Source: a virus. Taken from it: DNA of 35,995 nucleotides. The notes beneath the pieces were generated by a model, which was not told where the DNA came from, ran no database searches, and saw nothing but the letters and a program-made list of their open reading frames with translations. Where the stretch lies: positions 1 through 35,995 of IMG/VR virus record IMGVR_UViG_3300017971_000540; one strand, given 5' to 3'. The translations under genes and the position numbers were made by a program. Within the stretch, counting starts at the first letter, position 1. Every line of letters starts with the position of its first letter. This document shows, in pieces, positions 13,706 to 34,514 of the stretch.

Positions 13706-13853
13706 ATCCGTCCTCTTTCGCACAGCTTCCACATAAAAGCAACCAAGGATGGAATGGATAACACCCCTCTGCCTTGTATGCCGGCCCATCGTAAGTATCA
13801 TCATCGTAGATGAAGTCGTTTTTACACTTGTCACATATCAAGCGCTCATCCAT
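13491..13853 (-). CDS. CxxC/CxxC small protein with long overlap into ninB
   Basis: ATG 13853 overlaps the stop of the upstream gene. The first 50 residues have two Cys pairs (C7-x2-C10 and C41-x2-C44) in a sequence like ICDKCKNDFIYDDDTYDG, a zinc-ribbon layout. No stop follows before the NinB start, so the frame runs on another 215 bases inside ninB to give 120 aa; that part looks non-protein-like (GRSERGSDRAGED). Either the overlap is real, or an indel has removed the natural stop. Function unknown. Confidence 0.5.
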   Translation of the reverse strand: MDERLICDKCKNDFIYDDDTYDGPAYKAEGCYPFHPWLLLCGSCAKEDGYVRDNGIQQGRSERGSDRAGEDCSKGEVSCCGQCQKQEGRALVGSECADVEVDAGDQGSLVIDRIRTRVLG

Positions 13854-14556
13854 TCTCGAATCTCCTGAATGCAGCTTCGCTGCTACTGAATACATGATCC
13901 TTAAGCCAGCGCTTTCCTTCAAAGCGATAGCAGTACCAATGCTCGCCTACCTTGCTGATCCTGTCCTTGTAAGACCCTTTTCGCTCGTAGACATGCGAGC
14001 CGACATGACGCCAGCCTGCACGCTTAATGATATCTGATGCCGCCTCTATCTTGCGAGTCCCAGCTGGCTTGCGCCGGCCAGTCCTTATGAACATACTGTC
14101 ATCCGGATCCAGCTGGATCTTGGCGAACAGATCATAAGGGAATTTATAGACGTACTTCTCCTTATCGCCTCGCTCAGACCTGTACCGCTCAAGATGTCTC
14201 GTAAATTGATCGAACACTGCTCGCACATCCTTCAGATACCCAAGCACGCCATCGTTGAACAGGTAGAAGAGGGCGAAGTCTGCATCGTGCTGGTCGCATA
14301 GCTCTATCGCTGCATCCGTTTTGATCTGATCTATCACGCAACCTTCCAGATGCCTGTACCCGAATGGAATATCCCTGCACTTGAACTCGGCCAGCGTATA
14401 TCTCTGATCAGGGCCAAGACGCATCTTGAAATCTACTGACTCCAGCTTTGCTGTCTTGGCGTACTTCACAGGATGCTTGGCTATCTTGGTAAAGATATCT
14501 ATGAACCGATCTTCTCGCTCACGGTCTACCTTCTTCTCATGAATAGGTGGACTCAC
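13846..14556 (-). CDS. Putative PD-(D/E)XK nuclease-like protein (236 aa)
   Basis: Near the N-terminus ESVDFKMRLG (D42) is followed by TLAEFKCRD (E57-F-K59), the D...ExK layout of restriction-endonuclease-fold nucleases. Further helices with DQIKTDAAIELC follow, as in YqaJ-, VRR- or Holliday-type members. The basic C-terminal domain ends with a FSSSEAAFRRFENG helix. It lies between small cassettes and NinB/DUF1364/RusA, so a DNA-processing role fits. The nuclease call comes from motif shape alone. The start overlaps the previous stop (ATGA). Confidence 0.6.
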   Translation of the reverse strand: MSPPIHEKKVDREREDRFIDIFTKIAKHPVKYAKTAKLESVDFKMRLGPDQRYTLAEFKCRDIPFGYRHLEGCVIDQIKTDAAIELCDQHDADFALFYLFNDGVLGYLKDVRAVFDQFTRHLERYRSERGDKEKYVYKFPYDLFAKIQLDPDDSMFIRTGRRKPAGTRKIEAASDIIKRAGWRHVGSHVYERKGSYKDRISKVGEHWYCYRFEGKRWLKDHVFSSSEAAFRRFENG

Positions 14557-18428: not shown

Positions 18429-19058
18429 GTGGAAGACTTTCCGCAAATCACCCAAGTAAATCCTGAGGCTCAGGCCAAGCTATTCGAGGCACTGTCAAAG
18501 GCACAAGCTGAATACCCAGACGTACCTAAAAGCAAGGTCGTCAAGGTGCGAGGCAAAACAAAGAATGGCCAACCATTCGAGTATGAATTTAAGTATGCCC
18601 CTCTCGAAGAGGTGCAGCGAGCCCTGCGTAAGCCATTCGAGAAACACGGCCTGTCGTTCTTCCAGCGGGTCGTGGCCGGCGATGGATCTGATGCCCTGCT
18701 GATTACCACCATTGGCCACAAGGATGGCGGCTGGATCGCTGACAGCATGCCAATCACCAGATCCGGTGACATGAAAGAGTTCGGCGGGACGATCACCTAT
18801 GCCAAGCGCTTTGCCCTTTGTGCCATTGCAGGTATCTCTGCAGAAGAAGATACAGAGAACACTGGCAACGGAGATCGAGTGACTGATATCTCTGATACCA
18901 ATCCTGAGATTGTTGAGAAGATCGAGGCTGCATCAACACTGCCCGATCTCATGAAAGTATGGCAATCACTGAGTGGAGCAGAACGTAAGGCTCATGCTCA
19001 TGTGAAGGATGTCCAGAAGGCGTTCATTCAGGAAGTGCAGGAGGCCGAAAATGTCTGA
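18429..19058 (+). CDS. erf: ERF-family single-strand annealing recombinase
   Basis: 209 aa from GTG 18429, with SD CAGGAGGACTACC. The core reads YAPLEEVQRALRKPFEKHGLS, then DGGWIADSMPI and GGTITYAKRFALCAIAGIS, the ERF superfamily signature (YAxL..v...r..l...GL; G...TYakRYaL...Gi). It anneals ssDNA for recombination and genome circularisation. It overlaps the YqaJ exonuclease gene by 8 bases, forming a two-component Red-like system with SSB downstream. Length is usual. Confidence 0.93.
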   Translation: MEDFPQITQVNPEAQAKLFEALSKAQAEYPDVPKSKVVKVRGKTKNGQPFEYEFKYAPLEEVQRALRKPFEKHGLSFFQRVVAGDGSDALLITTIGHKDGGWIADSMPITRSGDMKEFGGTITYAKRFALCAIAGISAEEDTENTGNGDRVTDISDTNPEIVEKIEAASTLPDLMKVWQSLSGAERKAHAHVKDVQKAFIQEVQEAENV

Positions 19059-19902
19059 TCTATCACCACTGCGCAAAGGCCGCATCACAGCAACCAGAGG
19101 TCGGGATATCCTGACCTCTCACTTCAACACCCCTGAACAGGTTATGCGGGAAATGGTGCGAGAATACTTTGATGCACCTACCGAGTTCGAGGGCAACATC
19201 GCAACCGACTGGGGCATTGAGCATGAGGCAGATGCAGCGATTGAATACGAGAACCGCTTTGGAGAGATTCTGGTTGAAAAAGAATTTGCGGTGCATCCCG
19301 ATTACGATTGGCTGGGTTCCAGCTACGACCGCGCTACGACTGATAAGCTGGTCGAGATTAAATGCCCGTTCACGAAAAAGATTCCTGCCTCCTGTCCGGA
19401 AGGTTATCTGGTACAGCTCCGTATCGAGCTCGAATGTGACCAAAGGTTCGAGGTCGGTGAGGTCTTTTACTGGACGCCGAATGAAGCGAAGATCCTTGCT
19501 ACAGTCGAGGAAGGGCTCACGAAAGAAGAGCTCGCTAAGCTCCTTGAGTTCCACAAGAGATTCAGGGAGATCATTGCAGATGAGAAACTCTACGGCCCGT
19601 ACCTCGAAGAACCTGTCGTCGAGCACACTGACCAGAAATGGGCAGATGCGGCTGCCTCATACAAGGCGGCCTGTGACGCAGAGGCTGCAGCTAAGCTGGT
19701 CAAGGATGCCGCAAGAAAGAATCTCATTGAGCTGGCAGATAAGAAGAAAAGCCGTGGAGCTGGAGTCTCTGTTACCCCCTTCGAGAAGAAGGGGAACGTC
19801 GATTACAAGAAGGTTCCTGAGCTTAAAGGTGTAGATCTTGAGCAGTACCGAGCCAAGTCTACGCTTCAGTATCGATTAACTGTTGAAAAGGAGGACGTAT
19901 GA
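19051..19902 (+). CDS. YqaJ-family recombination exonuclease
   Basis: 283 aa from ATG 19051 (SD GCAGGAGGCC); an upstream in-frame ATG lies inside erf and is rejected. The text ATDWGIEHEADAAIEYENRFG (E57, E59), WLGSSYDRATTDKLVEIKCPF (D93, E102, K104) and GYLVQLRIELEC (Q122) matches the YqaJ/lambda-exonuclease active site, with SSYD replacing the usual SPD. It resects dsDNA ends to give ssDNA for ERF. A helical, Ala/Lys-rich C-terminal part follows. Confidence 0.9.
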   Translation: MSDLSPLRKGRITATRGRDILTSHFNTPEQVMREMVREYFDAPTEFEGNIATDWGIEHEADAAIEYENRFGEILVEKEFAVHPDYDWLGSSYDRATTDKLVEIKCPFTKKIPASCPEGYLVQLRIELECDQRFEVGEVFYWTPNEAKILATVEEGLTKEELAKLLEFHKRFREIIADEKLYGPYLEEPVVEHTDQKWADAAASYKAACDAEAAAKLVKDAARKNLIELADKKKSRGAGVSVTPFEKKGNVDYKKVPELKGVDLEQYRAKSTLQYRLTVEKEDV

Positions 19903-20030: not shown

Positions 20031-20447
20031 ATGAGTGGAGTAAACAAGGTCATTATAATCGGCAACCTTGGGAATGATCCAGATGTACGCTATACCGCAA
20101 ACGAGCAGGCAGTGACTAACATATCTGTCGCAACCTCAGACTCGTGGAAGGACAAGCAGACAGGTGAGAAGAAGGAGAAGACCGAGTGGCATCGCATCAT
20201 TTTCTTCGGGAAGCTGGCTGAGATCGCCGGAGAGTACCTACACAAGGGCTCGAAAGTGTACATCGAAGGCAAGCTACAAACCCGCAAATGGCAGGACAAG
20301 GAAGGTCATGACAGGTACACGACCGAGATTGTCGCCAACAACCTGCAGATGCTGGACAGCAAAGGCGGCAAGCCTGAACCTCACGAGTCCGGCAAGCCTC
20401 AAGGACGGCCTGAACCAGACGACTTCGTTGACGATATCCCGTTCTAA
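20031..20447 (+). CDS. ssb: Single-stranded DNA-binding protein
   Basis: 138 aa. It begins [21 protein letters not shown], the SSB OB-fold start, with [21 protein letters not shown] in the core. A short linker and the acidic tip DDFVDDIPF follow, like the DDDIPF tail of gammaproteobacterial SSB that docks host repair proteins. The linker is shorter than in E. coli SSB (178 aa). It sits with ERF and YqaJ as one recombination set. Confidence 0.96.
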
Positions 20448-20448
20448 A

Positions 20449-20488
20449 TGATTAGTGCCTCTCTTGTAGTGAGAGAGGCACATAATCA
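20449..20488 (+). promoter_or_regulatory. Leader hairpin H9 after ssb
   Basis: A 9-bp stem (GTGCCTCTC 20455-20463 with GAGAGGCAC 20473-20481) around the loop TTGTAGTGA. TGATTA / TAATCA extends it with one bulged base. The loop keeps GTAGTGA, as in H7, but is shorter (9 nt). It lies directly after the ssb stop and before the RBS of the protease-like gene. Confidence 0.65.
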
Positions 20489-20504
20489 ATTTAAGGAAGA
20501 AATC

Positions 20505-21113
20505 ATGCTGTTAAATTTCAAAAACCACCAGCGACTGCTGATCACCAAGTACAAGGGCAAGCGCTTGATCATCGACACCGGATCTCCGATGTCGTTCCTC
20601 GATTCCATTATGGGGCAGGATCCAGTGAAGTATTCCCAGAAGCTTGGTGCGAAGGTAGACGGCCTGATGGGCTTGGACATGCTCGGAGATCAGTTCACTT
20701 TCTTTAAGGACTCTGTTGATACAGGGCTCGTCGTCCGTGATGCAGATCCAATCAAGATGCAGAAGGTGCTCGGATTCCCGTTGATCGAGGTCGTGGTCGG
20801 AGGCTACAAGCTGAGGGCTATCATCGATACCGGAGCGCAGATCTCATATGTTCCGGCCAAGGCACACCCACAGTTCGGAGTGGTCTTCGAGGATCATTCT
20901 CCTTTGCTTGGTGACTTCGTTACAGAGGCCACTCCACTGGAGTTCGAGATCGGTAGCAAGCAGGTGACTCTGGATACCGGCTACATGCCGCCAGCCCTGC
21001 GAGCTCTGACCAAGATCCAGATGATCGATGTCATCATCGGATCAGAGCTTCTTGATCATTTCATCTACTCTGTAGATTTGCCTTATTGTTACCTAACTGC
21101 ACCGGAGGTGTGA
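20505..21113 (+). CDS. Two-lobed retropepsin-like aspartic protease
   Basis: 202 aa from ATG 20505 (SD AAGGAAGAAATC); an in-frame ATG at 20448 overlaps the hairpin and lacks an SD. Two D-T-G-S/A triads appear: LIIDTGSPMSF (D24) and AIIDTGAQISY (D108), each preceded by hydrophobic strand residues. Each is followed by a hydrophobic-hydrophobic-Gly motif: DGLMGLDML (52-60) and DVIIGSELLD (175-184). This is the layout of a retropepsin domain present twice in one chain, so the enzyme could work as a monomer as pepsin does. It lies between ssb and a membrane protein. Substrate unknown. Confidence 0.78.
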   Translation: MLLNFKNHQRLLITKYKGKRLIIDTGSPMSFLDSIMGQDPVKYSQKLGAKVDGLMGLDMLGDQFTFFKDSVDTGLVVRDADPIKMQKVLGFPLIEVVVGGYKLRAIIDTGAQISYVPAKAHPQFGVVFEDHSPLLGDFVTEATPLEFEIGSKQVTLDTGYMPPALRALTKIQMIDVIIGSELLDHFIYSVDLPYCYLTAPEV

Positions 21114-21114
21114 C

Positions 21115-21333
21115 ATGACAATTACCTTACCGATATTGCTTGGCGTGTTTGTGCTGGGCATCTTTACTGGATTCGTATTCGCTGTTCGAAATCTACGAAA
21201 GGAGGAGGCAGACTTATGGAAAAGCGCCAAGTTCAGGCCATCAGGTGAAGACTTGAGGCAATACGAGCAAAACAAGCGCAACGAGCACAGATTAGAGTCG
21301 TATTCTCGTAAGAGAAACAATATCTGGCTATAA
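21115..21333 (+). CDS. Small single-span membrane protein (72 aa)
   Basis: ATG 21115 with GGAGGTGTGAC, whose SD is the last codons of the protease gene. A transmembrane segment covers residues 4-23 (TLPILLGVFVLGIFTGFVFA), followed by a basic cytoplasmic part (RNLRKEEADLWKS.. ending RNNIWL). It may anchor or regulate its neighbour or be a superinfection factor. No known family. It ends at the two-way terminator region. Confidence 0.7.
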   Translation: MTITLPILLGVFVLGIFTGFVFAVRNLRKEEADLWKSAKFRPSGEDLRQYEQNKRNEHRLESYSRKRNNIWL

Positions 21334-33614: not shown

Positions 33615-34087
33615 TACCACCAGCCCTCGTCTGCGCCCTTAGCAATCGTAGTGCCGGCTGTCTTCACAGCATCAGAATAACCGCCATACTTCGCCTGCGT
33701 ACCGCTCTCACGGACACCTGACGCCGATACATAAGCACCACTTCTAGCCAGATTTGCCTTGCTCTTCCCGGATTTCTTGAGCCAATCAAGCTGCCGCTTG
33801 TTCTCTGTAGACATATCGGACAAATAGTCTTTTGTTGAGCCGGACACCTGCACACCTGATGCAGCAGCCTTGGCCAAAGCCATACTCTCAGCCTCCCTCT
33901 GCTGAGCAGATACGCGACGAGCTTGCTCCTGAGTCTCTGCTTCAATGAGCTTGGCATTCTCTCTGCCCTGAGCCTCCATTTCAGCAGCTCGCTTATCAGC
34001 GACATCCTCAGCTCGCTCTCCGGCATAAATTGAATAGCCAGCACCGGCAGCAGATATGATCACCATCCAAGTCGCTGGATCAGCCAT
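33614..34087 (-). CDS. Internal virion protein (T7 gp14-like)
   Basis: 157 aa. It begins MADPATWMVIISAAGAGYSIYAG, a short hydrophobic span, then a long Ala/Glu/Gln helix (EAETQEQARRVSAQQREAES) and ASGVQVSGSTKDYLSDM. This is the pattern of gp14-type core proteins, which form the outer-membrane part of the ejection channel. It ends DEGWW. It lies after the GNAT gene and before the gp15-like gene, as in T7. Confidence 0.82.
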   Translation of the reverse strand: MADPATWMVIISAAGAGYSIYAGERAEDVADKRAAEMEAQGRENAKLIEAETQEQARRVSAQQREAESMALAKAAASGVQVSGSTKDYLSDMSTENKRQLDWLKKSGKSKANLARSGAYVSASGVRESGTQAKYGGYSDAVKTAGTTIAKGADEGWW

Positions 34088-34514
34088 TTTCGCACCTCAC
34101 AATCGCATACATATCAGTATCCCGCATATCTGGCGTTACACACCGCATCGTACCTTCATATTCAAAACCAAGCAGCTTGATGAACCTGCCATACTCCTCG
34201 ATGTGCGTTTGCACATGCGCCTGAACCCTGTGTAACTGCATCACGCTCATCATCAAAGGTATCCTGTCGCGCATATGCTTAATCATAGCAAGGCCGCGAC
34301 CTCTTGCATCATCTGAAACATAAGCCCAGATCTGCCCTACGCCGGCATAAAGAGGAAATACACCGGCGCAAGCAACAACCCTTCCATCCTCTTCGGCCAC
34401 CGTGGCCAGACCCTGCAGCACGCTGTTCTCACTGAAAGTGCCAGTAACATCGCCTGAGCGGATTCTGACCTTGGCCCAGTCGCCGCGCTCGTACTTGCGG
34501 AACTTTACAGCCAC
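34080..34514 (-). CDS. GNAT-fold protein (T7 gp13-like virion assembly factor)
   Basis: 144 aa from GTG 34514 (SD GGGGCAGACGC). It contains IWAYVSDDARGRGLAMIKHM, the GNAT acyl-CoA loop (R-G-R-G-L-A), followed by a helix and VQTHIEEYGRFIKLLGFEYEG. Podoviruses of the T7 type have a GNAT-like protein (gp13) just before gp14, needed for assembly. Whether it acetylates anything is unknown. It overlaps its neighbours by 10 and 8 bases. Confidence 0.8.
   Translation of the reverse strand: MAVKFRKYERGDWAKVRIRSGDVTGTFSENSVLQGLATVAEEDGRVVACAGVFPLYAGVGQIWAYVSDDARGRGLAMIKHMRDRIPLMMSVMQLHRVQAHVQTHIEEYGRFIKLLGFEYEGTMRCVTPDMRDTDMYAIVRCENG

Follow-up and report, generated by a model that had tools for sequence, protein, structure and literature searches.

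Locus and genomic context

The window analyzed here, 35,995 bases of phage DNA from metagenome data, is an entire IMG/VR virus record (IMGVR_UViG_3300017971_000540). On its plus strand, positions 20505 to 21113 encode a 202-amino-acid, two-lobed aspartic protease-like protein (P0001). The ATG at position 20505 follows a plausible ribosome-binding site, AAGGAAG (20493 to 20499). For a longer, 221-amino-acid open reading frame (ORF) beginning at position 20448, the start would fall within a hairpin, directly after the ssb stop codon. This RNA hairpin (20445 to 20493, plus strand) between ssb and the P0001 gene is strong (-24.8 kcal/mol, z score of -7.2) and has no T-run; it is possibly an RNA processing or attenuation element. 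One base past the P0001 stop codon, a 72-amino-acid ORF with a hydrophobic N-terminal segment begins (21115 to 21333, plus strand). It has no match in Pfam and likely encodes a co-translated, small single-pass membrane-type protein.

A first-pass annotation of this DNA had placed the gene in a recombination operon next to ssb and away from the capsid genes, and matches to known families agree with that placement. The plus strand upstream of P0001 carries genes for an Erf-type single-strand annealing protein (18429 to 19058; PF04404, E value of 1e-16), a YqaJ/RecE-type recombination exonuclease (19051 to 19902; PF09588, E value of 1e-16; phrog_434), and, as the upstream neighbor, SSB (20031 to 20447; PF00436, E value of 5e-41). 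The capsid, portal, and terminase genes are distant and lie on the minus strand, with the capsid, scaffold-like, and portal genes in a T7-type order; very large ORFs (989 and 1178 amino acids) are found close to the structural genes. The minus strand also encodes a GNAT acetyltransferase (34083 to 34514), located among the structural genes, and a PDDEXK_14 phage putative endonuclease (13849 to 14556).

Putative catalytic motifs and lobe anatomy

The first-pass annotation reported two DTG triads (D24 and D108), each followed by a hydrophobic-hydrophobic-Gly motif. Both are present as described, although the protein contains four DTG triplets in total (D24, D72, D108, and D157). D72 and D157 were rejected as catalytic residues, being nonconserved and wrongly positioned. 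The former sits in a low-confidence loop of the AlphaFold2 model (residues 70 to 76); D157 and T158 are not conserved across the family, and the invariant column is the Gly at 159.

Lobe 1 spans residues 1 to 80 (20505 to 20744). Its DTG (20574 to 20582), with the putative catalytic Asp24 encoded at 20574 to 20576, is separated by ∼33 residues from the hydrophobic-hydrophobic-Gly of the lobe 1 psi-loop, GLMG (residues 53 to 56; 20661 to 20672). Lobe 2, which is Ddi1/retropepsin-like, spans residues 90 to 202 (20772 to 21110). Here, the DTG (20826 to 20834; putative catalytic Asp108 encoded at 20826 to 20828) occurs within DTGAQISY, and the psi-loop motif is VIIG (residues 176 to 179; 21030 to 21041). 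Between them lies a flap (residues 130 to 149; 20892 to 20951) that is the counterpart of the family signature DFYPGxGxFxT and is modeled with strands at residues 126 to 132 and 136 to 149. All of these features are on the plus strand.

When the family profile was split in half and the halves were aligned with hhalign, the E values were about 1e-9 to 1e-10; the lobes are thus mutually homologous and stem from a duplication. In the same comparison, lobe 1 is without the ∼28 columns that carry the DFYPGxGxF flap in lobe 2. The earlier description of two retropepsin-like lobes in one chain is therefore correct as to their number, but the lobes are unequal, with lobe 1 flapless and much shorter.

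Database searches with the phage protein

The comparison with retropepsin-like profiles proposed in the first-pass annotation gave a divided result: lobe 2 passed the cutoff of the Pfam RVP model PF00077 (23 bits; cutoff of 20.7) and is also close to Asp_protease_2, but lobe 1 alone gave no match in a single-sequence search. The best PDB sequence match of P0001, yeast Ddi1 (2i1a; E value of 4e-4), likewise falls in lobe 2. No match was obtained in PHROGs or NCBIfam, and no A1 (Asp) family was among the Pfam matches up to an E value of 10. PADLOC returned a weak match to PDC-M08B (E value of 0.002) over 30 residues around the DTG at residue 108, which we read as a shared protease motif and not as a defense assignment.

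Relatives of P0001 were also sought among mobile elements. Searches by tblastn retrieved no match from phage records (queried with P0001 and two bacterial family members) or from plasmids (queried with P0001 and one bacterial member). Viral contigs scanned with peptide and DNA patterns (P0001, the lobe 1 motif, and DTGA[QK]hSY) yielded no confirmed relative, nor did 27 related or partly related virus records, which include related-terminase phages and many fragments, contain a match to P0001. No other viral member of the family was found in these contig scans and virus records.

A rare but widespread bacterial family

Genome contigs searched with P0001 alone also gave no relative, and the family surfaced only when bacterial genomes were scanned with a DNA pattern for lobe 2 (hhDTGA[QK]hSY). 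Most of the 55 pattern-matched loci encode a protein of ∼222 amino acids, with the first DTG near residue 25 and the second near residue 129; the pattern itself demanded only the second. Against a profile built from 45 bacterial homologues, P0001 scored 99.9 bits, while the best of 2,000 shuffled sequences reached 7.1 bits. Each half also scored on its own (31.7 bits for lobe 1 and 65.8 bits for lobe 2), and the reported triads thus exceed chance. Invariant columns of the family alignment (A1) correspond to D24, G26, G48, G56, D58, D108, T109, G110, A111, S114, Y115, D130, G159, P162, and G179 of P0001; the flap residues G136 and F138 are conserved in at least 90%.

To escape the bias of the pattern, the genomes were searched again with the profile and without a motif filter. 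At most a few per cent of the sampled genomes, which covered one class and four phyla, contained a member. Among the homologues retrieved, every member whose alignment covers lobe 2 has the Asp of that lobe, and the full-length members also keep the lobe 1 Asp; exceptions in the lobe 1 column were either truncated genes or different, larger proteins that matched only weakly. The first-pass annotation had looked to homologues lacking one Asp as evidence against its reading. With or without the motif filter, both residues are kept in nearly all members.

The compact enzyme is not a phage invention, as ∼222-amino-acid bacterial proteins of the same layout occur in many phyla. P0001 evolves fast and is a trimmed member of their family, which is rare but widespread among bacteria. 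It shares with members such as L041, L032, and L063 the order of the lobes, both DTG/hydrophobic-hydrophobic-Gly pairs, a GxLP motif, the flap signature, and the single chain. P0001 is ∼20 residues shorter than the bacterial proteins, having lost about 30 residues with the lobe 1 hairpin and most of the interlobe linker, and no shorter member with two intact lobes was seen. Its identity to any family member is at most 31%. The column of a near-invariant His (GH motif) before the first DTG aligns to Leu11 of P0001, with His8 three residues away, and the family DF reads DH at residue 131. Four members were scanned against Pfam, and no model covered any of them along the full length; no description of a bilobed bacterial family of 200 to 220 amino acids was found in the open-licence literature.

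Predicted fold

AlphaFold2 models were obtained for P0001 (pLDDT of 84.7, pTM of 0.83, weak only at residues 70 to 76) and for the bacterial member L041 (pLDDT of 93.9, pTM of 0.89). The L041 model superposes over its whole length on 9iy9, a putative endopeptidase of Bacteroides fragilis (TMq of 0.72, 293 columns), and over its full length on renin (TMq of ∼0.60, ∼350 columns); these superpositions support a predicted arrangement in which the lobes face each other. For the P0001 model, the top whole-chain matches retrieved by Foldseek from the PDB were artificial single-chain HIV proteases (TMq of ∼0.5, ∼220 columns), with single HIV subunits at TMq values of 0.35 to 0.38; the rmsd to the tethered HIV protease is large (∼7 Å). 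Structure prediction, suggested in the first-pass annotation as a check on the facing lobes, thus points to a bilobed fold: L041 resembles bilobed enzymes along the full chain, and both lobes of P0001 resemble tethered HIV dimers. There is good support for a single chain that contains both lobes.

Comparison with known aspartic proteases

Bilobed single-chain bacterial enzymes of clan AA are already known, 9iy9 being a solved case, and P0001 and the compact family are therefore a variant and not a new category. Sequence similarity extends to 9iy9 (family profile E value of 1.4e-7), although that protein is 420 amino acids long, is named "Exported protein," and has ∼150 additional residues ahead of the first lobe match. 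Pepsin and renin (MEROPS A1) likewise have two lobes in one chain, as modeled for P0001, but exceed 320 amino acids, and no A1 model matches P0001 in sequence.

Lobe 2 has an RVP-type sequence with a DTGA site, as in retropepsins (MEROPS A2). Retropepsins are homodimers of equal one-lobe chains with a flap each, whereas P0001 has two unequal lobes in one chain. The RVP domains of Ddi1/Ddi2 (2i1a and 4z2z) give the best PDB sequence match for lobe 2 but have one lobe per chain, homodimerize, and form part of a larger ubiquitin-pathway protein. Single-chain dimers of HIV-1 protease (1hvc and 4eq0), matched along the whole chain, differ in having identical lobes and two flaps. Bacterial retropepsin-like proteases include RloA and RimB (PMC12239564 and PMC11957791) and APRc (PMC4140852). 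RloA has a DTGA site; it homodimerizes, and its DTG site arises where the two subunits meet (PMC12239564). Among phages, crAss-like and other retropepsin-like proteins (A0A8S5QUR9, A0A7M1RY13, and A0A8S5S0H9; 170 to 182 amino acids) share the clan AA fold with P0001 (TMq of 0.47 to 0.50), a match by predicted fold only.

Proposed mechanism, function, and origin

P0001 is probably a soluble, asymmetric aspartic endopeptidase of clan AA, with two lobes in a single chain, that is made early and has a cytoplasmic target encoded by the host or the phage. Each lobe would supply one DTG loop, and Asp24 and Asp108 would meet at the interlobe cleft to activate water, the mechanism of pepsin and of the retropepsin dimer. 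The lobe 2 flap alone would close over the substrate, with lobe 1 reduced to a psi-loop core. Synthesis would occur early, together with the recombination genes, and we infer the class of substrate, a cytoplasmic host or phage protein. Proteolysis is likely; a host or defense target is a reasonable guess from the location of the gene.

An aspartic protease fold could also serve in a pseudo-enzyme or peptide-binding protein whose two-lobed cleft holds a partner without cutting it. The heavy trimming of lobe 1, the very long branch of P0001, and the changes at several near-invariant family residues all fit such a role. However, both DTG triads and both hydrophobic-hydrophobic-Gly motifs were kept despite much other change, as expected under selection for catalysis, and we regard a noncatalytic protein as unlikely. 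P0001 might instead homodimerize using only lobe 2, in the manner of Ddi1 or RloA, and lobe 1 would then be a remnant. Lobe 2 by itself does match RVP and Ddi1, and lobe 1 is short and lacks a flap, but Asp24, Gly56, and Asp58 of lobe 1 are invariant, both models have a good pTM and form a single bilobed unit, and the bacterial one resembles enzymes with two lobes; of the alternatives weighed here, we find this one the hardest to credit.

Aspartic proteases mature retrovirus particles, and P0001 might by analogy process capsid, scaffold, or internal proteins of the phage virion; the ORFs of 989 and 1178 amino acids close to the structural genes are potential substrates. Against this stands the position of the gene on the plus strand in the recombination operon, far from the minus-strand capsid, portal, and terminase genes. 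Phages with the T7-type head gene order form a group that is not known to use a prohead protease. Related-terminase phages also gave no match, though many of those records are fragments. Prohead maturation is thus improbable because of the operon location and the T7-type head genes, in accordance with the first-pass annotation, which had judged it the less likely role.

The P0001 branch in the family tree is very long (3.47 changes per site). The simplest account of its origin would be that the phage acquired the gene from a bacterium and that the gene then diverged quickly. More speculatively, and less likely than not, the phage captured a compact bacterial bilobed aspartic peptidase, pared it almost to the minimum size of a natural single-chain enzyme, and deploys it early in infection to cleave one particular host protein, such as a defense sensor or nuclease subunit.

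P0001 would be a rare aspartic protease within a phage recombination operon, and the phage copy shows the extent to which such an enzyme can be trimmed. Rawlings and Bateman (PMC2761423) asked whether a one-lobed ancestor was duplicated and fused to give pepsin or, conversely, half a pepsin gave rise to retropepsin. A multiphylum bacterial family with two homologous lobes of ∼100 amino acids, one of them flapless, resembles an intermediate form and makes this question testable.

Gene neighborhoods and fusions of the bacterial family

In ∼10 bacterial loci from several phyla, the gene for the two-lobed protein is directly preceded or followed by a same-strand gene for a class I SAM-dependent methyltransferase, with the two genes 0 to a few bases apart or overlapping. 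These loci include L031 (426 to 1148), L032 (5581 to 6300), L039 (2784 to 3533), L041 (3903 to 4904), L042 (3365 to 4114), and L047 (4410 to 5156), as well as L066, L069, and L072. The direct adjacency in so many loci and phyla suggests that the two-lobed protein and the methyltransferase may form a functional pair; the phage window has no counterpart of the methyltransferase. In L037 (1534 to 3501), L055 (2156 to 4186), and L077 (1637 to 3667), the two-lobed domain is fused C-terminally to a protein whose start reads as similar to a von Willebrand A domain (VVIDRSGSM); a gene for a MerR-like regulator is close by. Finally, some Bacteroidota copies (L103, L104, and L106) are split or broken by stop codons, with one TAG in L106 and one TGA in L103; the bacterial family may therefore be decaying in places.
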